64,000 nucleotides of DNA from a virus, in IMG/VR virus record IMGVR_UViG_3300048014_000057, positions 62,001-126,000 of that record; one strand, given 5' to 3'. The number at the start of each line of letters is the position of its first letter. The stretch's first letter is position 1. The notes under the pieces are model-generated. The model was not told the origin of the DNA. It ran no database searches and saw only the letters and a list, made by a program, of their open reading frames with translations. This document shows positions 1-47,786 of the stretch, one piece after another. Both the position numbers and the translations under genes were made by a program.

Positions 1-277
1 CTTGATTAACATTTCTAATTTTAAATTCAAGAATTGTACTATCAATTCTAAATGACAAAATAAAAAAATTTAAATCAATATAATATTGATTATTATTAGT
101 TTGGTCACAAAAAATAAAAATAGTACCATTATAGTCTAATTTACTAACAAATTTTTTAAAATGGTCTCTTACTTTTTTTCTTGTTTCTTCGTTATTATTT
201 TCAAGAAAAACATCATCTGGAAAATACGATTTTACCTCACTTTTGATAAGATTAATTACATTATTTTTATTTAACAA
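1..277 (-). CDS. Small protein resembling the C-terminal part of tail sheath, partial
   Basis: The reading frame opens at a TTG (277) that overlaps the end of gene 46 and runs off the left edge of the window, so only about 92 residues are visible. Residues around 28-75 (EETRKKVRDHFKKF, then FIFCDQTNNN) follow the pattern of the T4 gp18 C-terminus (FTR..F...., FRVVCDETNNTP). A second small gene at 54218 carries the same CDETNNN motif. The sheath link is a motif match by eye. The start codon is uncertain; AAGGA lies ten bases upstream of the TTG. It lies immediately downstream of gene 46, outside any tail cluster visible here. Confidence 0.45.
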   Translation of the reverse strand, partial: MLNKNNVINLIKSEVKSYFPDDVFLENNNEETRKKVRDHFKKFVSKLDYNGTIFIFCDQTNNNQYYIDLNFFILSFRIDSTILEFKIRNVNQ

Positions 278-3026
278 TTTTACTAAATCCTTTCTCTTTT
301 TTAAATTCGATTATATTTTCTATTCTATCCTTATTTTTTTCATTATGAGAAATAATAAACACATTTTCATCCTTTGTCAATCTTTTTAAAATATTAAGGT
401 AAGAATCTATTCCATCTGCATCCATACTACCATCAAGAGTTTCATCAAAAATAAGTAAATTTGTATCGAGTGAATTTCTTCTTTTTGCCACTTCTCTGAA
501 AGTAAAGAGAAGTGCCAAATTAATTCTCATTTTTTCTCCTTGACTAAAAGACTGAAAAATATGTTCATCACGATATCTAGATTTTATAACTTCATTAAAA
601 TTTTCATCTACTGTAAATTGACAAATAAAATCCATTTCAAGAAGAAATTTATTTATTAATTCATTAATCACTTCAATATATTGTTTAATAATAGAAGCCT
701 TGACTCCATCATCTCGAAGAAGTTTAAGTAATATATTCATATTTTCTTTTTGAATTACTAAATTATCATAATTTTTAATATAATTTTCAAGAGAATTTTG
801 TAATTGTAAAATTTCTTCTGTTTTATCTTCCACATTTTCATTTTTAAAAGAATTAATTTTTATTTTTAATTCATTAGCAAGAGAAGTAATATTTTTTAAT
901 TCATATAAAATTAAATCAATTTTAGAATTAACTTCTTTCATGGATTTAATAGAATCATTAAATTTATCAATTTCTAATTCTAATTTATCATATGTTCTTT
1001 GGTATATTTTTACCTGATCTAAATTATGAGTATGTTGTATCCTTTTTTCTTGTATAATAATATCCTTAAAAGTTTCATCAATATTTTGATTACATACATT
1101 ACAAACACACGTATTTTCATAATAATACATTTCTTTTTCTAGTTTTTTATTTTCAAGTTTTAAATTATTAATATCACTTCCAAGTTTATAATAAAGTGAT
1201 TCTTTAGTTTTTAATTCATCTTCTATTTTAGAAGTATCAAATTTTTCTGGTATATTCTTCTTTTTTAACAAATATGATTTTCTGTATTCCTCTAATTTTT
1301 CTTCCATTTCTAAAATTTGTTTTTGATTATCTTCTTTTCTTTTTTTATTATATTCTTCCAATAATTTGATTCTATTTTTTAAAGTATTTTGTTCGGTTCT
1401 TAATTCATAGATATTTTTTTCATTATCTTGAATTCTTTTTTTAAGTATTAAATTCATAGAAGAAAATATTTCAAGATCAAGTAAATTTTCTACTATTTTT
1501 CTTCTATCTGGTAAAGGAAGTTCTAAAAAAGGAACATACGAAGCCGAACCCAAAACACAAACTTGACAAAATGCCTTATGATTAATATGAAGAATATTTT
1601 CTTCTAAATATTTTTGATAATCATCTTGGTTTGTATTATTCAATAATACATTATTTTTATATATTTCAAATTTATTAGGTTTTATACCTCTAATAATCTT
1701 ATAAAAATCTTGTCCTATGGTAAATTCTATTTCCACCAGACAATTTTTCTTTGTCATTGAATTAACCAAAAGAGATAAAGTTACTTTTCTAAATGGTTTT
1801 TTAAACAAACAAAAACAAAGAGCATCAAGACAAGTCGAATTATGAGTTACAACATAATTATCAGTTACATATAACTGAGAAGGATGATCAATAGAAATAC
1901 ATTTAACAATTTCTTTTTCAATTTTTTCAATTTTTTCAATTCTTAAACGTAAAGAATCTTTATATTGATAATTTTTACATCTTTCTTTTTTTCTAGATAA
2001 TGAAAATAACTCAGATGGATTTTTATATCTAATATTTAATTGATATGATAATCTTCCTTTCTTTTTTATTCCTTTATTTGTAAAGGAAGGATTTTTTTCT
2101 GAAATTTTACAAATACCACCAATAGAAAATATTAATTCTTGTATATCTTTGGCTAATTCATAACTTGTTGTTGAATAAGAAATAGAACCGTTTCTATCAG
2201 CAGTTCCATCTGTATCCATTAAACCACGTAATAATTCTATTTTTTGATTAAAAGAAATATTTTTATATAATTCTGGAATATTTTTTTCCCAGGATCGTTT
2301 TCCATATAAATTTAATTTTTTTAATTCTTCTTTAAATATGTGTTTTTCATATTTAATACCATAATTAATTCTATAAGAACATCTTGTTTGAACTTTTGAT
2401 AAATGTAATTTTACAATCCTAGGACAAGTAAAATCAAGAATATTTCTTACTTTATTTAATAATTCTTCATCTGTATTTGTTATTGTTACATTACTACTAG
2501 TAAATGATCCATCACCAATTAAAACACCTAATAAATAAGGATTAATTGGTAAATCTACATCTTTTTTTATAAAATTTTCTGCTTCAAAAAGTTGAATAAA
2601 ATGATTATCAGTAAAATTACCTAATGAATTTTCTTTTTCTTTTAAAATTTCTAAAAGAGATAAAATTTTCCATTGCCATTTTGATTCAAAATATCCCCAT
2701 ACTCTAAAAAGATGGTTTTCCCCACATTTAACTTTTCTTCCATCTTTAAATGTAATTTCATATACATTTTCTTCTCCGATAAATGGAATATCAATTACTT
2801 TTGATATATCTCCATTAGCAGATACAATTTCATCTCCAATTTTTATATTACCAATAGTATTCCATCCTAAAGGTGTTAGGATTTTTGAATATAATGGTTG
2901 TGCTTTACCAGCACCATTTATACCAACAATAAGTGAAATAGAATTTTCGTTTAATTTTATTTCTGTCCATTGATTACCAGATGATAAAAAATTCTGGTAA
3001 CGAATAGTATTAAATATTATTTTCAT
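267..3026 (-). CDS. 46: Recombination endonuclease subunit gp46 (SbcC/Rad50-like) with in-frame intein
   Basis: ATPase subunit of the gp46/gp47 exonuclease, which resects DNA ends for recombination-dependent replication. The N-extein (residues 1-41) ends inside the Walker A loop GINGAGK. An intein fills residues 42-396. The C-extein resumes with STCLDALCFCLFKKPF, which closes the P-loop and matches T4 gp46. A long coiled coil follows, with a CNVC zinc-hook motif near its middle. The C-terminal ABC signature (FSQGEKMR) and Walker B (LLIFDETLDG) are present. After splicing the protein would be about 564 residues, the normal size for the family. Gene 47 lies upstream on the same strand, separated by two small genes. 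No activity is possible without splicing because the ATP-binding loop is interrupted. Confidence 0.95.
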   Translation of the reverse strand: MKIIFNTIRYQNFLSSGNQWTEIKLNENSISLIVGINGAGKAQPLYSKILTPLGWNTIGNIKIGDEIVSANGDISKVIDIPFIGEENVYEITFKDGRKVKCGENHLFRVWGYFESKWQWKILSLLEILKEKENSLGNFTDNHFIQLFEAENFIKKDVDLPINPYLLGVLIGDGSFTSSNVTITNTDEELLNKVRNILDFTCPRIVKLHLSKVQTRCSYRINYGIKYEKHIFKEELKKLNLYGKRSWEKNIPELYKNISFNQKIELLRGLMDTDGTADRNGSISYSTTSYELAKDIQELIFSIGGICKISEKNPSFTNKGIKKKGRLSYQLNIRYKNPSELFSLSRKKERCKNYQYKDSLRLRIEKIEKIEKEIVKCISIDHPSQLYVTDNYVVTHNSTCLDALCFCLFKKPFRKVTLSLLVNSMTKKNCLVEIEFTIGQDFYKIIRGIKPNKFEIYKNNVLLNNTNQDDYQKYLEENILHINHKAFCQVCVLGSASYVPFLELPLPDRRKIVENLLDLEIFSSMNLILKKRIQDNEKNIYELRTEQNTLKNRIKLLEEYNKKRKEDNQKQILEMEEKLEEYRKSYLLKKKNIPEKFDTSKIEDELKTKESLYYKLGSDINNLKLENKKLEKEMYYYENTCVCNVCNQNIDETFKDIIIQEKRIQHTHNLDQVKIYQRTYDKLELEIDKFNDSIKSMKEVNSKIDLILYELKNITSLANELKIKINSFKNENVEDKTEEILQLQNSLENYIKNYDNLVIQKENMNILLKLLRDDGVKASIIKQYIEVINELINKFLLEMDFICQFTVDENFNEVIKSRYRDEHIFQSFSQGEKMRINLALLFTFREVAKRRNSLDTNLLIFDETLDGSMDADGIDSYLNILKRLTKDENVFIISHNEKNKDRIENIIEFKKEKGFSKIVK
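1839..2903 (-). mobile_element. LAGLIDADG intein in the gp46 P-loop
   Basis: 355 residues between GAGK and STCLD of gp46. It starts with Ala (AQPLYSKILTPLGW), has the block A pattern GDEIVSANG, a block B GENHLF, two LAGLIDADG motifs (LLGVLIGDG, LLRGLMDTDG) and ends VVTHN followed by Ser. An Ala at position 1 cannot act as the usual nucleophile. A Cys in block F (VKCISID), a Thr just before the final HN and Trp residues after block B fit the class 3 (WCT) splicing mechanism. Both endonuclease motifs keep their acidic residue, so homing activity is plausible. Confidence 0.9.
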
Positions 3027-17212: not shown

Positions 17213-17295
17213 GGCTTCGTAAACGAGGGGAGCTTCTAACTCCTTAGTCGTAACTGGATTTGAAAATGAAGGTTCGATTCCTTCCGAAGTCACCA
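17213..17295 (+). tRNA. tRNA-Arg(TCT)-like, no normal D-arm
   Basis: Acceptor GGCTTCG/CGAAGTC with one G-U pair, discriminator A, encoded CCA, T-arm GAAGG-TTCGATT-CCTTC. The only good anticodon arm is GGGAG-CTTCTAA-CTCCT, giving TCT. That leaves just eight bases where the D-arm should be and 23 bases in the variable region. It is either an aberrant tRNA, a decayed one or a mimic. Confidence 0.55.
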
Positions 17296-33981: not shown

Positions 33982-35727
33982 TTGTTTAAAAATAGTTTAT
34001 ATTCAGAATTTATTTATAAATCAAGATATGCGCGTTATTTAGAAAAAGAAGGTAGAAGAGAAGAATGGTACGAAACTGTTAAAAGATATTTTGATTTTAT
34101 TCAAGAAGGTTTAAAAGAAAAACATAATTTTGATATTTCTTCTTATAGAAAAGAATTAGAAAAAGCTGTATTATGCCATGAAATAATGCCTTCTATGCGA
34201 GGATTGATGTCTGCTGGTCCTGCTGCCAAAAGTAATGAAATTGCTCTTTATAATTGTGTCTTCTTACCAATTGATAATGTAAAATCATTTGATGAAGAAA
34301 TGGCTATTCTAATGAGTGGAACAGGTGTAGGATTTTCAGTTGAATCTCACAATATTAAAAATCTTCCAGAAATTCCAGAAGATTTTTTTGAATCTGAAAC
34401 AATAATAATTTTTAATGATTCTCGTTTAGGATGGGCAAAAGGTTATAGAGAATTTATTTCATTACTTCTTATTGGTCAAATCCCTAAATGGGATGTTTCT
34501 AATTTAAGACCTGCTGGTGCAAGATTAAAAACTATGGGCGGAACAAGCTCAGGACCGGAACCTCTAGTAGATTTATTAAATTTTACTATTAATATTTTCA
34601 AAAAGGCTGCTGGTCGTAAATTAAATTCATTAGAAATACATGATATTGCATGTAAAATTGGTGATATTGTTGTAAGTGGTGGAGTTAGGCGTTCTGCTTT
34701 AATTTCATTATCAGATTTAAATGATATTAAAATGAGAGATGCTAAATCTGGTAATTGGTGGCAAACAAATCCTTATAGAAGATTATCTAATAATTCTGCT
34801 GTTTATGAAGAAAAACCAGATATAAGCACATTTATGACAGAATGGTTAAGTTTATATAATTCACATTCTGGTGAAAGAGGAATTATTTCAAGAGAAGCTA
34901 TTAGAAATGTAATTGAAAATTCTAATTTTTATAGAACAAATCGTATTAATATTCCAGGATACGAAATTAGAACAAGAGATAAAAATTATGATTGGGGAGT
35001 AAACCCGTGTTGTGAAATAATATTAAGACCATATGAATTTTGTAATTTGACTTCTGTTCAAATTTATGAAGATGATACGCCTGAAACTCTTAAAAGAAAG
35101 ATTAGACTTGCTACTATTCTTGGTACATTTCAATCTTGTTTTACTAATTTTAGATATTTAAATAAAAAATATAAAAAAAATTGTGATGATGAAAGATTAT
35201 TAGGAGTTTCATTAAATGGTATATTTGATAACAAATATACCAATAAAAAATATTTTCTTGAAGAATATGAAGAATTTAGTCAATCTAAATTTTATAATTT
35301 TCTTGAAAGTCTTAAATCAGAAGCAATTGAAACTAATATAAAATTAGCCAAAGATATTGGTATTAATTCATCTGTTGCCATTACTTGTGTGAAGCCTGAA
35401 GGTTGTGTATCATTAGATACAAAGATTAAAACTAAAAATGGAATATTAAATATGGCTGAAATATTTTCTGAATTAACATCAGAAAATATATTTGAAATTG
35501 GTAATGGTGTCTGGATAGAACCAGAAAATATTATAACTGTATATGATGAAAATAATAACGAAAAAAATATTACTAAATTATTTGTAAATGGATTAAGTCC
35601 TGTTTATGAAATTGAATTCGAAGATGGTGTTATTGTAAAACTTACAAAAAATCATCAATTAAAAACAAAAAATGGATATAAAAAAGCAAAAGATTTATCA
35701 GAAAATGATGAAATTATTGCTTGGTAA
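33982..35727 (+). CDS. nrdJ: Class II ribonucleotide reductase, N-terminal part with N-half of split intein
   Basis: Adenosylcobalamin-dependent RNR (RTPR-like). It starts at TTG with GGGAG upstream. Residues 1-474 hold MSAGPAAKSN, NCVFLPIDN, RLGWAKGYREF, RPAGARLKTMGGTSSGPEPL and NPCCEI, then the loop TCVKPEG. At Cys475 an intein N-half of 107 residues follows (CVSLDTKIKTKNG, block B LTKNHQLKT) and ends DEIIAW-stop. The rest of the enzyme is in the next ORF. Activity requires protein trans-splicing or readthrough. Confidence 0.9.
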   Translation: MFKNSLYSEFIYKSRYARYLEKEGRREEWYETVKRYFDFIQEGLKEKHNFDISSYRKELEKAVLCHEIMPSMRGLMSAGPAAKSNEIALYNCVFLPIDNVKSFDEEMAILMSGTGVGFSVESHNIKNLPEIPEDFFESETIIIFNDSRLGWAKGYREFISLLLIGQIPKWDVSNLRPAGARLKTMGGTSSGPEPLVDLLNFTINIFKKAAGRKLNSLEIHDIACKIGDIVVSGGVRRSALISLSDLNDIKMRDAKSGNWWQTNPYRRLSNNSAVYEEKPDISTFMTEWLSLYNSHSGERGIISREAIRNVIENSNFYRTNRINIPGYEIRTRDKNYDWGVNPCCEIILRPYEFCNLTSVQIYEDDTPETLKRKIRLATILGTFQSCFTNFRYLNKKYKKNCDDERLLGVSLNGIFDNKYTNKKYFLEEYEEFSQSKFYNFLESLKSEAIETNIKLAKDIGINSSVAITCVKPEGCVSLDTKIKTKNGILNMAEIFSELTSENIFEIGNGVWIEPENIITVYDENNNEKNITKLFVNGLSPVYEIEFEDGVIVKLTKNHQLKTKNGYKKAKDLSENDEIIAW

Positions 35728-35856
35728 ATATTAAACACAGGAAAAAAAGAAATGAAAATAAAAAAAATTAAAATATTAGAACCAGAACTTACAGTAGATA
35801 TAGAAGTAGAAGATACACACACTTATCAATTAGAAAATGGAGTTGTTAGTCATAAT
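35404..35856 (+). mobile_element. Split mini-intein in RNR
   Basis: The N-half spans 35404-35724 and the C-half 35752-35856 (MKIKKIKILEPEL, block F VDIEVEDTHTYQLENG, end VVSHN, then Thr). It has no endonuclease domain. The two halves are in the same reading frame and separated only by one TAA and eight sense codons that contain GGAAAAAAAGAA, a usable ribosome site for the second ATG. Confidence 0.85.
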
Positions 35857-36417
35857 ACAACTGCTGCTTACAACGGTACTTCTTCGGGAATTCATCCTTC
35901 TTATTCTCCTTATTATATTAGATATGTAAGAAACGATAAAAAAGACCCTCTTACTAATTTTATGATTAATAATGGATTTCCTTGGGAAGTAGATGTATAT
36001 GATCCTAATAATGTTGTATGTTTTAAATTTCCTATTAAATCTGCTTCTACTTCTGTTTCAAGAAAAGAATTAAGTGCGATTGAACATCTTGAAATTTGGT
36101 TAGAATATCAAAAATATTATTGTGAACATAAACCTTCTGTTACTATTTCTGTTAAAGAAGATGAATGGATGGAAGTTGGTGCATGGGTTTATAAAAATTT
36201 TGAATGGATGAGTGGAGTATCATTTTTACCAGCAGAAGAAGGTTCTACAGTTTATAAACAAGCACCTTTTACAGAATGTAATGAAGATCAATATAATGAA
36301 TTATTAAATAAAATGCCAGAAAATATTGATTGGAAAAAATTAGTAGAATTTGAATTAGAAAACTCGACTACAAATTCTAAAGAATTGGCGTGCGTTTCTG
36401 GTGGATGTGAAATATAA
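35752..36417 (+). CDS. nrdJ: Class II ribonucleotide reductase, C-terminal part with C-half of split intein
   Basis: First 35 residues: intein C-half ending VVSHN. Residue 36 onwards is the RNR C-extein: TTAAYNGTSSGIHPSYSPYY, then SVTISVKEDEW, FLPAEEGSTVYKQAPFTEC and a terminal CVSGGCEI that holds the thioredoxin/glutaredoxin-reduced cysteine pair. Joined to the first half this gives about 660 residues, the usual size. Confidence 0.9.
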   Translation: MKIKKIKILEPELTVDIEVEDTHTYQLENGVVSHNTTAAYNGTSSGIHPSYSPYYIRYVRNDKKDPLTNFMINNGFPWEVDVYDPNNVVCFKFPIKSASTSVSRKELSAIEHLEIWLEYQKYYCEHKPSVTISVKEDEWMEVGAWVYKNFEWMSGVSFLPAEEGSTVYKQAPFTECNEDQYNELLNKMPENIDWKKLVEFELENSTTNSKELACVSGGCEI

Positions 36418-41381: not shown

Positions 41382-42097
41382 AAAATAATTATCATACAAT
41401 TTTTATTTCTGATGTACATCTAGGAATGAGATTTATTGATTCTTCTAAACTATTGAAATTTTTGAGAAATTCAAATTCCTCTAGGATTTTTATTGTAGGA
41501 GATTTTATTGATGGATGGGCTCTTTCTTCATCTTGGAATTGGCCTGATATAAATTCTAAAATAATAAAAGAAATATATAATAAATCTTCCCATGGAACCG
41601 AAATAATAATTGTTGCAGGTAATCATGACGAATTTTTAAGAAATTATGTTGGAATTTCTTTTGGTAACATAAAAATTGTAGATAAATACATATATAAAGC
41701 AATGAATGAAAAAAGTTATTTAATTATTCATGGTGACTTATTTGATTCGGTTATTCGATATGCAAAATGGTTAGTATTTCTTTCAGATCATCTTTATAAT
41801 TTAGTTTTTATGATTAATTATGTATTGACTAAAATTCCAAAAAATCATTGGTCTCTTTCTCAGTGGTGTAAAAATTCTGTAAAATCAGTTCTTAATTTTA
41901 TTACACATTTTGAAAATATACTATGTAAAGAAGCTGAATTAAATAAATGTGACGGTGTAATTTGTGGTCATATTCATAAAGCTGATATTAAAAAAATAAA
42001 TGAAATAGAATATATGAATTGTGGAGATTGGGTAGAATCTCATAATTGTTTAGTAGAAGATTTTGAAGGTAATTTTAAAATAATTAATTTTAAATGA
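41378..42097 (+). CDS. LpxH-like metallophosphoesterase
   Basis: 239 residues: SDVHLGMR (9-16), GDFIDGW, AGNHD, HGD and CGHIHKAD, the pattern of UDP-2,3-diacylglucosamine pyrophosphatase relatives. The tail NCGDWVESHNCLVED is typical of that branch. Coupled to the glycosyltransferase upstream (ATGA). Confidence 0.78.
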   Translation: MKNNYHTIFISDVHLGMRFIDSSKLLKFLRNSNSSRIFIVGDFIDGWALSSSWNWPDINSKIIKEIYNKSSHGTEIIIVAGNHDEFLRNYVGISFGNIKIVDKYIYKAMNEKSYLIIHGDLFDSVIRYAKWLVFLSDHLYNLVFMINYVLTKIPKNHWSLSQWCKNSVKSVLNFITHFENILCKEAELNKCDGVICGHIHKADIKKINEIEYMNCGDWVESHNCLVEDFEGNFKIINFK

Positions 42098-42104
42098 GAT
42101 AGTT

Positions 42105-43547
42105 ATGTTTGATGAAAATTTAAAGAATTGGATTAAAGAAAATTGTTTTTCTATTAAAGGAAGTTTGAATAATAGAATTTCCTTTTTGTCTTGGTGGAAA
42201 AATAAATGTGTAGAAGAATACTTAGAAAAAATTATAGAACAAACTTCATTTTTAGAAACAGATAATATTACACAAAGAATTTATCATATTTTAAATGATA
42301 TTAAAAGCATTCCATTATGCAAGCATTGTGGAGTCAAGGAAAATAATTTTAAACAATTTAAGTCTGGTTATTTTGATTACTGTTCTTTATATTGCTCTAC
42401 CCAATCAGAAGAACGTAATAAAAAAATTGGCAAAAACCGTGATATGGTTTCTATCATAGAAAAGACTAAAAAAACAAATTTAGAGAAATATGGTGTAGAA
42501 TTATATTATCAGACAGAAGAATTTAAACGAAAATCTGCTCAGTCTAAATTAGAACGTTATGGAAATTGTCAATACAATAATTTAGAACAAAATAAAAAAA
42601 CTTGCATTGAAAAATATGGAATAGAAACACTATTTAATAATTCTGAATTTCAAACAAGAATACAAAGAATAAAATTAGAAAAATTTCCAGATGGAATTAT
42701 AAATTGGGGCAGAAAATCTAAACCAGAAAAAGAGATTAAAGAATTTCTAAATCAATATGGTAATTTTAACACAAATAGAAAATTACTAGATGGACTGGAA
42801 ATAGATGCTTATTCGGAAGAGCTAAATTTGGGTGTTGAATATTGTGGACTTTATTGGCATTCCGAAGAATTTAAAGAAAACAATTATCATTATAAAAAAT
42901 ATATTAGTTGTAAAGAAAAAAATATAAAGTTAATAACTATTTTTGAAGATGAGTGGATATATAGAAAAGATCAAGTTCTACAATTTCTTAAGGCAAATTT
43001 AGGTATTTTTGAAAAAAGAATATTTGCAAGAAAATGTAAATTTATTCAATTAGAGGATAAAAGATATGATTTTTTTGATAAATACCATATACAAGGATCA
43101 CCTTCTAATATAAAATATTCTTTTGGTTTAGAATATGAGGATGAATTAGTCGGTTTAGTATCTTTTGCAAATCATCATAGAGATAATGTTAAATTAGTTC
43201 TTAATCGACTTACATTTAAAGATGGATATCAAATAATTGGTGGTGCCTCAAGATTAATAAAAAACTCTTTGGAAAGATTAAATCAGGAAATCATTACTTG
43301 GTCTGATAATAGATGGTCTACAGGAAAAATTTATGAAAATTCTGGATTTATTCTAGATGAAAATTTAGCTCCTGATTATTCTTATGTATTAAAAGACAAT
43401 ACCTTTAGAAGACAATCTAAACAAACAAGTAAAAAATCAAATTTTAATATACCTCCCGAAATCACAGAACATGAATATTTCTATAATAAAGGAATTTATA
43501 GAATTTATGATTGTGGCAAAATAAGATGGAAATATAACAAAAAATAA
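42105..43547 (+). CDS. Vsr/EDxHD-type homing endonuclease with C-terminal GNAT/Mom-like region
   Basis: 480 residues. A Cys pattern (CKHCG, then CSLYC) and repeated KYG helices (DNA-binding repeats) precede a nuclease core with LEIDAY, GLYWHSEE and CKEKNIKL, typical of the Vsr-related family linked to split inteins in marine phages. The C-terminal ~200 residues (FARKCK, HIQG, LNRLTFKDGYQIIGGASRL, DNRWSTGKIYENSGF, YRIYDCGK) look like a GNAT/Mom-type domain. It sits directly before the intein-bearing glycosyltransferase. Confidence 0.75.
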   Translation: MFDENLKNWIKENCFSIKGSLNNRISFLSWWKNKCVEEYLEKIIEQTSFLETDNITQRIYHILNDIKSIPLCKHCGVKENNFKQFKSGYFDYCSLYCSTQSEERNKKIGKNRDMVSIIEKTKKTNLEKYGVELYYQTEEFKRKSAQSKLERYGNCQYNNLEQNKKTCIEKYGIETLFNNSEFQTRIQRIKLEKFPDGIINWGRKSKPEKEIKEFLNQYGNFNTNRKLLDGLEIDAYSEELNLGVEYCGLYWHSEEFKENNYHYKKYISCKEKNIKLITIFEDEWIYRKDQVLQFLKANLGIFEKRIFARKCKFIQLEDKRYDFFDKYHIQGSPSNIKYSFGLEYEDELVGLVSFANHHRDNVKLVLNRLTFKDGYQIIGGASRLIKNSLERLNQEIITWSDNRWSTGKIYENSGFILDENLAPDYSYVLKDNTFRRQSKQTSKKSNFNIPPEITEHEYFYNKGIYRIYDCGKIRWKYNKK

Positions 43548-43565
43548 GAAAGGAAAATAATATAA

Positions 43566-45593
43566 ATGGAAATTAAATTAACTGCCGAAGACCTAGCCAA
43601 AAAGAAATTATTTATAGCTACACCTATGTACGGGGGTTTGTGTGCTGGTATGTACACTAAATCTATGTGTGATTTATCGGCTGTTTGTACTAGATATAAC
43701 ATAGAACTACAATATTTTGCTTTGTTTAATGAAAGTTTGATCACACGCGCTCGCAACTATTGTGTAGATGAATTTCTTAGATCAAAAATGGATTATCTTT
43801 TATTTCTTGATGCCGATATTGGGTTTGATCCTGGTGATATTATTGCTATGATGGGTTTGATGACACTAGAATCTCCTTATGATGTCCTATGTGCGCCTTA
43901 TCCAAAAAAATCGTACGATAAAGATACACCAATTCTTACAGAAGATGGTATTAAAAAAGTAGAGTGGATTGTTAAAAACAAATATTCTGGAAAAGTTATG
44001 TCTTACTCTTCTGAAAGAGGATTTGAATGGCAGCCTGTAATTAATTGGTTTGAATCTTTTGATCCTAATAAAAAATGGGTTAAATTATATTATCAAGGTG
44101 GTTCTAGTAATGGTAAATCTTTAACACTTACTCATGATCATGATTGTATGTTTATTAAAGATATTATGAATCCTTTAATAGAAAAATTACCAGCAGAAGT
44201 AGGTAAAAATAAATGGGCAGTTAGTAGACCAGTAAATAGAATTAATCCTTTATATACTAAAGATCAATTGTCATTTTTAATTGGTACGCTTTTAGGAGAT
44301 GCAACACTTTCTAAAAAAGAACAAAGATTATCAATTGAACATGGATCAAAACAAAAAGAATATTTAGAATTAAAGCAAAAAATATTTGGTGGTGAAATTA
44401 CAGGACCTTATACTACTAATAAAAATGGAACAACATGGCATTTAACATCACCTGTAAATGCACAAACTAGATATATAAGGAATATTTTATATGAAAATGG
44501 TAAAAAAACAGTAAAAAATATTTTGAAATATGTAGACGAAAAATCTTTAGCATTTTGGATATTAGATGATGGTTGTCTTCATAATAATAATGGGAAATAT
44601 TCTCCATATTACAGAATTTCTACAGAAGGATTTTCAGATGAAGATCAATATTTACTTGTAGATTTTTTAAAAGAAAAATGGGATATTGAAGCATCTATTG
44701 TAAAAAATGGTAAATATAATTGTTTATATATTAATACAATTGATAGTAAAAAAGTTTTTGATCTTATTTCTCCCTATATACCAGATTGTATGAAATATAA
44801 AATTCCAGAAAAATATCATTATGTAGAAAAATATATTTTTAATGGAGAATTTTTAAATTATGGAGCTTCTTTAGTAAAAGAAGTTAAATGGTTAAATGAT
44901 GAAAAAAGAAGAAATCAATATGATATTACTGTAGATGTAAATCATAATTTCGTTACAAAAAATATTACAATTTTTCAATGCATCAGTTGGGAAAAGATTG
45001 TTCAGGCGGTAAACAAAGGAATGGCAGATGAAAATCCTAATGTTCTGGATAAGTATGTTGGAGATTTCGTTTTTAATCCAAAATCAGGACAATCCCAAAT
45101 TCCCATTAATAAGCCTTGTGAAATTTTAGAAGGTGGAACAGGATTTATGATGATTCGTCGCGCTACTTTTGAAAAATTTCAAGAAGCATTTCCTCATTAT
45201 ATGTATCGTCCTGATCATGTAAGAACTGCACATTTTGATGGTTCTCGGCAGATTTGTCAATTTTTTCAGGCTGAAATTGATGCTCCTGATGCTGTATTAT
45301 TAAAAGAAAGAATTAAAAAAATTTTTGATAATGGTGGATCAAAAGAAGATATACAAAAAGAAGTTAATGATTTTGAAAAGAAATTATCTACAGCTTCTAA
45401 TCGTTATCTAAGTGAGGATTATTTTTTTTCGCAAAAGATACAAGAATTAGGTATGAAGATTTGGTTATGCCCTTGGATGAAGACAACTCACATGGGAAAC
45501 ATGATATATGGGGGAAGTTTAGCAGATTTAGCAAGTATAGGTGCCTCGCCAACCGCTGAAATTTCATTATTGAAAAAAGAAAAAGCTAAATAA
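43566..45593 (+). CDS. Phage glycosyltransferase with internal intein
   Basis: N-extein residues 1-115 (FIATPMYGGLCAGMY, FLDADIGFDPGD, CAPYPKK) and C-extein residues 472-675 (CISWEKIVQA, GGTGFMMIRR, ISEDYFF-like LSEDYFFSQK, WLCPWMKTTHMG) form one T4-like conserved glycosyltransferase of about 319 residues with the DxD motif DAD. It might glycosylate DNA or surface polymers. An intein interrupts it after PYPKK. Confidence 0.82.
   Translation: MEIKLTAEDLAKKKLFIATPMYGGLCAGMYTKSMCDLSAVCTRYNIELQYFALFNESLITRARNYCVDEFLRSKMDYLLFLDADIGFDPGDIIAMMGLMTLESPYDVLCAPYPKKSYDKDTPILTEDGIKKVEWIVKNKYSGKVMSYSSERGFEWQPVINWFESFDPNKKWVKLYYQGGSSNGKSLTLTHDHDCMFIKDIMNPLIEKLPAEVGKNKWAVSRPVNRINPLYTKDQLSFLIGTLLGDATLSKKEQRLSIEHGSKQKEYLELKQKIFGGEITGPYTTNKNGTTWHLTSPVNAQTRYIRNILYENGKKTVKNILKYVDEKSLAFWILDDGCLHNNNGKYSPYYRISTEGFSDEDQYLLVDFLKEKWDIEASIVKNGKYNCLYINTIDSKKVFDLISPYIPDCMKYKIPEKYHYVEKYIFNGEFLNYGASLVKEVKWLNDEKRRNQYDITVDVNHNFVTKNITIFQCISWEKIVQAVNKGMADENPNVLDKYVGDFVFNPKSGQSQIPINKPCEILEGGTGFMMIRRATFEKFQEAFPHYMYRPDHVRTAHFDGSRQICQFFQAEIDAPDAVLLKERIKKIFDNGGSKEDIQKEVNDFEKKLSTASNRYLSEDYFFSQKIQELGMKIWLCPWMKTTHMGNMIYGGSLADLASIGASPTAEISLLKKEKAK
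43911..44978 (+). mobile_element. LAGLIDADG intein with atypical C-terminus
   Basis: 356 residues from Ser116 (SYDKDTPILTEDG) to Gln471. Block B LTHDHDC, endonuclease motifs FLIGTLLGDATL and LAFWILDDGCL, block F YDITVDVNHNFVT. The end reads NITIFQ followed by Cys, so the usual penultimate His and final Asn are Phe and Gln. Splicing with C-terminal Gln is known in a few inteins. Confidence 0.85.
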
Positions 45594-45630
45594 ATCAATA
45601 ACTTAGCTTAAAAAATGAAAGAAATATATT

Positions 45631-47124
45631 ATGTTAAAAGGGCAAGGACAATCCAAAGAATATGAAATATTTGACTCTAATAAAAATATTTCATATTCAA
45701 TAAAAAATCTTGCAAATTTTTGTAGAGAAAATAATCTTTCTGAAATTTGTATGAGAGATGTTTCTAAAGGAAGATCAATGCAACATAAAGGGTTTTATTG
45801 TAAAGATAAAACCTCAGATATTAATCTTTTAGAAATACATAAAAATAGATTATTCTTATTAGAACCAAGAATAAAAATAACCAAAACAAAAAAAGAAAGA
45901 TATAATCAATCTGATTTATATTATGATTTTTTAAATAATGTAGAGAAATATTATAATGATCTACATATTGATAAAAAACTATCATGTCAAAAGATAGCTG
46001 AATTATTAGGATCAAATGACGAGAGTATTAGATTAGCATTTAAAAAATTGAATTTAGAATTAAAAAATTATAAGTATAATTCTGGAAAAAAAAATTATGA
46101 AATAAAAAATTTTACAGAAAAACAAAAATTACTAGCAGATAACTTTCAAGAAATTTTTAATAAAGAACATTTTGATAATAAACTGAGTATTAATTCTATT
46201 GCCAAAAAGTATGAATTTACTCCCATGACTATATTTAATTATTGTAAAAAATATGAAATTAAATACGAAAGTAAAAATATATCATCTCCTCATTCGGCAA
46301 TTATTAATATATTAGATAATTATAATATAAATTATGAAAAAAATAATAGAATATTAATTAAACCACAAGAATTAGACATATATATTCCAGATTATAATTT
46401 TGCCATTGAAATAAATAGTCTTTATTGGCATTCAGAAGATAAAAAAGAAAAAAATTATCATTTGAATAAATTCGATATATGTAAAGAAAAAAATATTTTA
46501 TTATTACAATTTTGGGATATAGAAATTGATAATAAAGCTGATTTAGTAGAATCTATGATTTTATCTAAATTAGGAATATACAAAAAAATAATGGCAAGAA
46601 AATGTGAAATAAAAATATTAAATAATAATGATATTAAAGAATTTGAAAATAAAAATCATATACAAGGTTATAGATCAAGTAGTATAAACTATGGATTATT
46701 TTATAAAAATGAATTAGTTATGGTTATGACTTTCAATAAACATAATCAATATGATTTTGAAATAATTCGGTTGTGTTCTAAATCAAATCATACTATCCTA
46801 GGTGGATCAGAAAGATTATTTAAAAAATTTATTTCTGATTATAATCCTAATTCAATTTTATCCTTTTGTGATAAAAGATTATTTAATGGAAATGTATATA
46901 AAAAATTAGGTTTTAAATTAGAAAGAGAAACTTCACCTAATTATTGGTATTTTAATGATAGAGAATATATATTAAAATCGAGATTACAATTTCAAAAACA
47001 TAAATTATCTAAACTTGAAAATTTCGACCCTAATAAATCTGAAAGTGAAAATATGAGAAATAATAGATATTACAAAATTTATGATTGTGGAAATTATGTT
47101 TTTATATGGAGAAAAAATACATGA
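45631..47124 (+). CDS. Second Vsr/EDxHD-type homing endonuclease
   Basis: 497 residues, paralogous over the last ~250 residues to the gene at 42105: LYWHSED, CKEKNILLL, GIYKKIMARKC, HIQGY, ILGGSERL, DKRLFNGNVYKKLGF, YYKIYDCGN. The N-terminal half differs and has two helix-turn-helix-like segments (SCQKIAELLGSNDESIRLAFKKL; SINSIAKKYEFTPMTIFNYCKKY). Overlaps the gp45 start by four bases. Probably invades at the gp45 or glycosyltransferase junction. Confidence 0.75.
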   Translation: MLKGQGQSKEYEIFDSNKNISYSIKNLANFCRENNLSEICMRDVSKGRSMQHKGFYCKDKTSDINLLEIHKNRLFLLEPRIKITKTKKERYNQSDLYYDFLNNVEKYYNDLHIDKKLSCQKIAELLGSNDESIRLAFKKLNLELKNYKYNSGKKNYEIKNFTEKQKLLADNFQEIFNKEHFDNKLSINSIAKKYEFTPMTIFNYCKKYEIKYESKNISSPHSAIINILDNYNINYEKNNRILIKPQELDIYIPDYNFAIEINSLYWHSEDKKEKNYHLNKFDICKEKNILLLQFWDIEIDNKADLVESMILSKLGIYKKIMARKCEIKILNNNDIKEFENKNHIQGYRSSSINYGLFYKNELVMVMTFNKHNQYDFEIIRLCSKSNHTILGGSERLFKKFISDYNPNSILSFCDKRLFNGNVYKKLGFKLERETSPNYWYFNDREYILKSRLQFQKHKLSKLENFDPNKSESENMRNNRYYKIYDCGNYVFIWRKNT

Positions 47125-47786
47125 AAATTACCAAAGAATTTATTACAATTTTAAAGAATTTTTCTTCTATAAATCAAAATATGTTATTTGTTCCTGGAAA
47201 TAAACAAAGTATTATTTCGACTACAGGATCAATATTTTCACGAGCCAATACAGATGTTGAAATAGAAAAAGAATTTGCTATTTTTTCTCTATCAAAATTT
47301 ATTAATGTTCTTTCATTATTTGAAGAACCTAATATTGAAATTAATGAAAAAACTCTTACAATTAGTTCTGTAAATGGTGAAAAAAAATGTAAATATCAAT
47401 TAACTAATCCTGAATTTATTAAGTATGAAAAAGAACCTGACAAATATAATAAAATGCAGAAAGATTTTGAGGGTATTCAATTAAGATATTCTGATCTTTC
47501 TGATATAATAAAAATGGCGGATATTCTTGGTTCTGAATTTATAATATTTGAAGGTAAGAATAATGCAAATTTTCTTTCTATCATGAATTCTAATGATAAT
47601 GGTGATACCGCCGAAGTATGGATTGATATTCAGGGTGGAGAATTCAAGGCCGTTCTTCCTAGAAATATGTTAAATCTTATTAAGCAAGATTATGAGATTA
47701 ATATTTCTAAAAAAGGAGCTATACAATTTCATTCGAATATGATAGATTATTTTATGGCTCTTGATAAAGGAAAATCAGTTTTATGA
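47121..47786 (+). CDS. 45: DNA polymerase sliding clamp gp45
   Basis: Start ATG 47121 with GGAG upstream (an upstream frame belongs to the homing gene). 221 residues, beginning MKITKEFITILKNFSSINQNMLF, then ISTTGSIFSRANTDVEIEKEF and a C-terminal QFHSNMIDYFMALDKGKS, close to T4 gp45. Processivity factor for replication and activator of late transcription. In the order 45-44-62-regA, as in T4. Confidence 0.93.
   Translation: MKITKEFITILKNFSSINQNMLFVPGNKQSIISTTGSIFSRANTDVEIEKEFAIFSLSKFINVLSLFEEPNIEINEKTLTISSVNGEKKCKYQLTNPEFIKYEKEPDKYNKMQKDFEGIQLRYSDLSDIIKMADILGSEFIIFEGKNNANFLSIMNSNDNGDTAEVWIDIQGGEFKAVLPRNMLNLIKQDYEINISKKGAIQFHSNMIDYFMALDKGKSVL

Follow-up and report, generated by a model that had tools for sequence, protein, structure and literature searches.

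The 64,000-nucleotide window analysed here, positions 62001-126000 of the 144,859-base virus record IMGVR_UViG_3300048014_000057, comes from a phage related to T4 with a G+C content of 27%. It contains three intact open reading frames (ORFs) on one strand, in the following order: a free-standing endonuclease gene of the Hef/EDxHD type (HE1), a glycosyltransferase-like gene bearing an intein (GT), and a second endonuclease gene of the same type (HE2). The sliding clamp gene gp45 and gp44 are next downstream. Homing endonuclease genes (HEGs) are present on both sides of GT, a core gene that is syntenic with gp45 in related phages. This arrangement is of a known kind, the HEG-island, published in 2023, in which HEGs bracket a core gene of the replication region (PMC10448857); here the cargo gene also bears an intein. 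Probably, the island in the GT-gp45-gp44 replication cluster consists of two separately acquired homing endonucleases that spread by homing, and the intein homes independently. The initial annotation, made from the sequence alone, had counted three selfish elements in 5 kb, and HE1, the GT intein and HE2 were all confirmed.

HE1 starts 7 nt past the stop codon of an upstream phosphoesterase gene (ending at 42097), on the 5' side of GT. HE2 lies precisely between the GT stop and the gp45 start and thus disrupts no gene. Its TGA shares bases with the ATG of gp45 (ATGA), and a GGAG motif ahead of this ATG is situated within HE2. Random placement of five such endonucleases and five intein genes resulted in an intein gene bracketed by chance in 0.2% of trials when all genes were eligible (about 215 by our own estimate), and in 3-6% when only 40-60 core genes were. 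The bracketing arrangement is therefore more than chance, and it is notable though not astonishing, because such elements have a known bias for core genes.

Both endonucleases belong to the same family as annotated Hef proteins, as seen from the phrog_3339 matches and from tblastn alignments with proteins named 'Hef-like'. The nuclease domain has the I-Bth0305I fold, in the predicted structure for HE2 and by alignment for HE1. The HE2 model has a mean predicted local distance difference test score (pLDDT) of 81, and its nuclease domain was compared with I-Bth0305I (3r3p) at a root-mean-square deviation (rmsd) of 2.5; the template modelling (TM) score is given in Table 1. All rows of the HE2 structural alignment are taken by another domain of the protein, the GNAT domain described below, and the nuclease match comes from Foldseek and the profile search, in which the family profile hits 3r3p with E 6.5e-9. 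This agrees with the initial proposal of Vsr-related nucleases on both sides of GT. The Vsr-like fold comes with conserved E, D, E and H, the exception being HE2 with H at the first E. HE1 retains this Glu and nearly all other conserved residues. Among 41 family members, Pfam domains were assigned as Vsr in 3, the MTES_1575 nuclease in 15 and Mom in 9.

HE1 and HE2 are 28.8% identical and have unlike N-terminal parts; thus they are separate acquisitions. In the N-terminal part of HE2, one segment resembles a helix-turn-helix and weakly matches HNH-endonuclease and invertase families. In the family tree HE1 falls near Hef of Caulobacter phage Cr30, and HE2 in a different place. A recent tandem duplication was considered and is ruled out by the low identity and by the position of the two genes as non-neighbours in the tree. 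The DNA repeats common to HE1 and HE2 are stretches of the common domains, about 72-74% alike. In total, the genome contains five members of the phrog_3339 family, with mutual identities of 27-36%. In other genomes, a T4-type core gene lies at most 1.5 kb away at 42 of the 86 family loci.

The GT intein interrupts a conserved site in frame, has splicing motifs, and is absent from homologues. Sixteen homologues read through the junction as PYPKK-[C/T/S/A]-[I/L], with PYAKK in Cr30 alone, and hence the insertion is exact. The nucleophiles S1 and C+1 are present, and splicing is plausible. The LAGLIDADG domain named in the initial annotation is indeed there: it is a LAGLIDADG_2 endonuclease related in sequence to I-SceI. 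Both acidic motifs are present and the domain looks intact, so the intein needs no helper. No close relatives of this intein were found in viral contigs, and the best ones in named phages are 27-33% identical. The label 'glycosyltransferase' itself is weak (PF13506, 2.6e-5 after intein removal). G+C content is 33-35% in the GT exteins, above the 26% of the window, compared to 25% in the intein and 20% in HE2.

Scans for GT yielded 103 loci, 90 of them distinct at 95% identity, including four named phages. Profiles were used since single-sequence scans produced three loci for HE1, three for HE2 and none for gp45. None of the 90 distinct loci contains the intein, although the profile scan was restricted to the best 80 of 595 loci and could under-sample intein-bearing GTs; Cys occupies the exact +1 position in 70 of them. 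The gap between GT and gp45 is shorter than 750 bp in 86 of the 88 loci showing gp45, commonly a few tens of bases, and in Cr30 it consists of 1,084 bp of small ORFs. DLP_6, phiM12 and RHph_I1_18 are empty as well. A Vsr-type gene is absent from this site in 87 of the 88 relatives and present in one, locus L141. On the HE1 side, no Vsr-type gene was found within 2.5 kb upstream in the 69 loci with at least 1.5 kb of upstream sequence. Insertion is sporadic, with empty alleles in relatives. The comparison of empty sites suggested in the initial annotation was thus successful for the intein site and the GT|gp45 junction, but not for the exact site of HE1; the situation that was to speak against mobility, both endonucleases in all relatives with no empty alleles, is not observed.

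The same junction is independently occupied in another phage. L141 belongs to a viral contig of 41.8 kb. Its Vsr-type gene occupies precisely the GT|gp45 junction; like HE2 it overlaps gp45 by ATGA, and it also overlaps the GT stop. It is not a sister of HE2 (32% identity), and the tree groups it with two other Vsr-type genes of its own contig. The GT gene of L141 has no intein; a group I intron (Rfam, 2.5e-21) splits it at TPMYG|G. The intron and the Vsr-type gene indicate that different selfish elements have targeted GT and its borders repeatedly: the gene carries an intein in the window and a group I intron in L141, and a different Vsr-type endonuclease in each of the two phages sits at the identical position in the neighbouring junction. 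The locus is a clean natural case of one core locus targeted repeatedly. The region L141:5600-7200 covers the interrupted GT and, just upstream, a small ORF with NUMOD3 that is enclosed by two copies of exon 1, possibly the footprint of a HEG insertion.

The proposed mechanism is as follows. In a mixed infection, HE1 and HE2 would each cleave the DNA of a phage without that endonuclease, at a site within the adjacent core genes. Repair of the break would copy the endonuclease gene in, and GT with its intein could be carried along. The intein would home by its own LAGLIDADG domain, with the codons for PYPKK|C as the target. Hef is reported to be active as an endonuclease and to have its sites close to the hef gene (PMC3322345).

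Several observations weigh against this interpretation. Firstly, none of the GT loci has a homologue of the gene just upstream of HE1; synteny breaks at HE1, and for this reason its precise empty site could not be shown. Secondly, no close relative differing solely in HE1 or HE2 was found, and none of 50,697 phage records matched at the DNA level, in a collection that may leave out close relatives of the source; mobility is therefore inferred across about 50-60% protein identity. Thirdly, the intein has an unusual C-terminal Phe-Gln, as opposed to His-Asn in the related inteins compared, those of the phage SelmaRatti DNA polymerase and the KLEP7 RNA ligase. Finally, HE2 lacks two residues retained by most relatives (E221->H and S394->E), and thus it may be weakened.

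Both endonucleases have a second domain downstream of the nuclease. The HE2 domain, modelled over residues 323-497, is predicted to have a GNAT fold (Z 13.7 for 125 aligned residues, rmsd 2.3), and the best PDB match of the whole HE2 model is phage Mu Mom (8bv8), as it is for the HE1 model (mean pLDDT 89). Mom-type enzymes transfer an acyl-derived group to adenine N6. In HE2 numbering, the family positions H343, R380, S394, D414 and Y423 align with Mom H58, R111, S124, D149 and Y159, the pairing of the His with H58 being our own reading of the alignment. The positions of these five Mom residues are kept in 58, 58, 47, 51 and 56 of 58 family members, respectively. The Mom-type Ser is retained in HE1 and missing from HE2, and the Mom S124A mutant is inactive according to the title of its PDB entry. 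The presence of a second, Mom-like domain in both flanking endonucleases, as modelled, may be a novelty. The conserved positions would allow a second activity in the Hef family, raising the question, for the whole family, whether homing endonucleases also modify DNA. One speculative possibility, which we consider unlikely, is that Hef/Vsr-type enzymes such as HE1 have two activities: the Mom-like domain would mark adenines at or near the target and protect the gene-bearing DNA, and the nuclease would cut unmarked rivals, making these proteins one-protein restriction-modification systems that spread by homing. If true, this would join two literatures that treat one family under different names.

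The same domain is the main argument for a rival explanation, to which we assign a low probability. HE1 and HE2 could be phage-borne restriction-modification proteins rather than homing endonucleases, the Mom-like domain modifying adenines of the phage's own DNA and the nuclease cutting unmodified DNA of the host or rival phages. Besides the structural matches of both models, the Pfam Mom assignments and the conservation of the key positions, such nuclease-Mom fusions of phages have been read as restriction-modification enzymes, five momylating enzymes being credited to phage PA5oct (PMC7824862). A family gene of PA5oct is annotated as a 'Hef-like homing endonuclease', and its near relative 30-3 has five family places. 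It is likely, from these sequence links, that the restriction-modification and homing literatures concern the same proteins. A search of one literature collection revealed no paper linking the Hef homing and Mom-fusion readings, which is weak evidence of novelty. However, five paralogues with unlike N-terminal parts, each placed beside a core gene and missing in relatives, are more than a gene for protective modification would require. Moreover, the catalytic-type serine is absent from HE2, and the published Hef acts as a site-specific homing enzyme (PMC3322345). The core-gene placement, patchiness and diverse N-termini favour homing over restriction-modification.

The three elements may act jointly. 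In the specific form of such action, collaborative homing, HE1 or HE2 would cut the intein insertion site, or the empty allele of the intein, and the three elements would spread as a unit; this we regard as improbable. The elements are physically linked, there is precedent for free-standing endonucleases mobilising introns (PMC2988022, PMC10448857), and the group I intron in the L141 GT gene adjoins the free-standing NUMOD3-type gene and Vsr-type genes. However, the intein has an intact-looking endonuclease of its own, the N-terminal parts of HE1 and HE2 differ, and no relative has the intein with just one endonuclease, or the intein at all. Nothing points to the shared target or joint homing suggested in the initial annotation, given the low identity of HE1 and HE2, the self-sufficient intein, and the Vsr-type gene of L141 that resides beside an intein-free GT. 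Another improbable explanation is that HE1 and HE2 have long resided at the locus and are decaying, or were co-opted for expression of gp45 and GT, with HE2 supplying the gp45 ribosome-binding site: the ATGA overlap, the GGAG motif and the two substituted sites of HE2 are compatible with it, but both ORFs are full length, HE1 is nearly fully conserved at the key residues, and almost all relatives manage without a Vsr-type gene at GT|gp45.

As in the published HEG-islands, HEGs bracket a core gene of the replication region and the HEG content at the same spot varies between relatives; however, that survey was based on HEGs of the T5orf172 and HNH types (PMC10448857), whereas here both are of the Vsr type and the cargo bears an intein. 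No other phage was found to have a near-identical island. HE1 and HE2 share phrog_3339 and the domain layout with T-even Hef, and 'Hef-like' relatives match over nearly the full length, at about 29% identity. The two genes flank GT, whereas T-even hef is stated to be located between nrdA and nrdB (PMC3322345). The fusions of jumbo phages resemble HE1 and HE2 in combining a nuclease and a Mom-like GNAT domain in one chain, and the link through PA5oct suggests the same family, although PMC7824862 reads them as restriction-modification enzymes and never mentions homing. In Campylobacter phage IBB_35, also T4-related, several selfish elements gather at one core gene as well: terL has an intein, an intron, a homing endonuclease and adjacent Hef genes (PMC3322345); both the gene and the mix of elements are different. 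The nuclease fold (3r3p) is common to HE1, HE2, the Vsr-like/EDxHD enzymes and I-Bth0305I; HE1 and HE2 differ in being free-standing, outside a split-intein gap or group I intron, and in having the extra Mom-like domain. In T-even phages, Hef is reportedly a homing endonuclease encoded by a free-standing gene (Sandegren, 2005, as cited in PMC2988022 and PMC3322345), and the Vsr-like/EDxHD homing endonucleases of fractured genes and I-Bth0305I are said to have been described by Dassa in 2009 and Taylor in 2011.

Table 1. Features of the HE1-GT-HE2-gp45 region (window coordinates)
Feature	Position	Strand	Support
HE1, free-standing Hef/EDxHD homing endonuclease, 480 residues	42105..43547	+	phrog_3339 1e-86
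HE1 N-terminal DUF7487 region, residues 113-194, presumed DNA-binding	42441..42686	+	PF24308 4.6e-11
HE1 Vsr/EDxHD-type nuclease domain, about residues 205-300	42717..43004	+	E208, D234, E245, H252, H262, K265 conserved
HE1 Mom-like GNAT domain, about residues 304-480	43014..43544	+	Foldseek best match 8bv8 Mom 1.3e-6; phrog_1384 Mom-like 4.7e-7
GT, glycosyltransferase-like gene, ORF of 675 residues including intein	43566..45593	+
GT N-extein, ends ...CAPYPKK	43566..43910	+
Intein, 356 residues (S1...Q356, +1 Cys), GT residues 116-471	43911..44978	+
LAGLIDADG_2 endonuclease inside intein, GT protein residues 236-395	about 44271-44750	+	4e-26
GT C-extein, begins CISWEKI	44979..45593	+
HE2, free-standing Hef/EDxHD homing endonuclease, 497 residues, at GT|gp45 junction	45631..47124	+	phrog_3339 2.5e-97
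HE2 Vsr/EDxHD nuclease domain, about residues 215-315	46273..46575	+	3r3p TM 0.81 on target; H221 instead of usual E
HE2 Mom-like GNAT domain, about residues 318-497	46582..47121	+	8bv8 Mom 7.6e-6; E394 instead of usual S
gp45, sliding clamp, GT neighbour in relatives	47121..47786	+	phrog_223 1e-39

Elsewhere in the same genome, a third Vsr/Hef-type gene separates gp18, the tail sheath gene, from the tube gene gp19 (L043:17607-19271), and a tandem minus-strand pair lies just past the capsid gene gp23 (L044:14029-16876); the names gp18, gp19 and gp23 are our reading of the sequences. Inteins were also found in a gp46-like gene (267-3026, minus strand), in the large terminase gene (L043:10052-13078) and, two of them, in the portal gene gp20 (L044:1186-4707). 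The class II ribonucleotide reductase gene (33982-36417) is broken by a split intein into two same-frame ORFs 24 bp apart. The N half ends with ...DEIIAW*, the C half is MKIKK...VVSHN|TTAAYNG, and the gap contains no endonuclease. The same site has a split intein in L104 too and is empty in L071. In a 325 kb phage, a UvrD-like helicase ORF (L115:6523-8815) harbours an intein with 28% identity to the GT intein in its LAGLIDADG part.

An Rfam scan of the window produced tRNAs only and no group I intron. One of the tRNAs (17213-17292, 33.7 bits) was missed by ARAGORN, which assigned the other three tRNAs of the window as Met, Tyr (anticodon ATA) and Ile.
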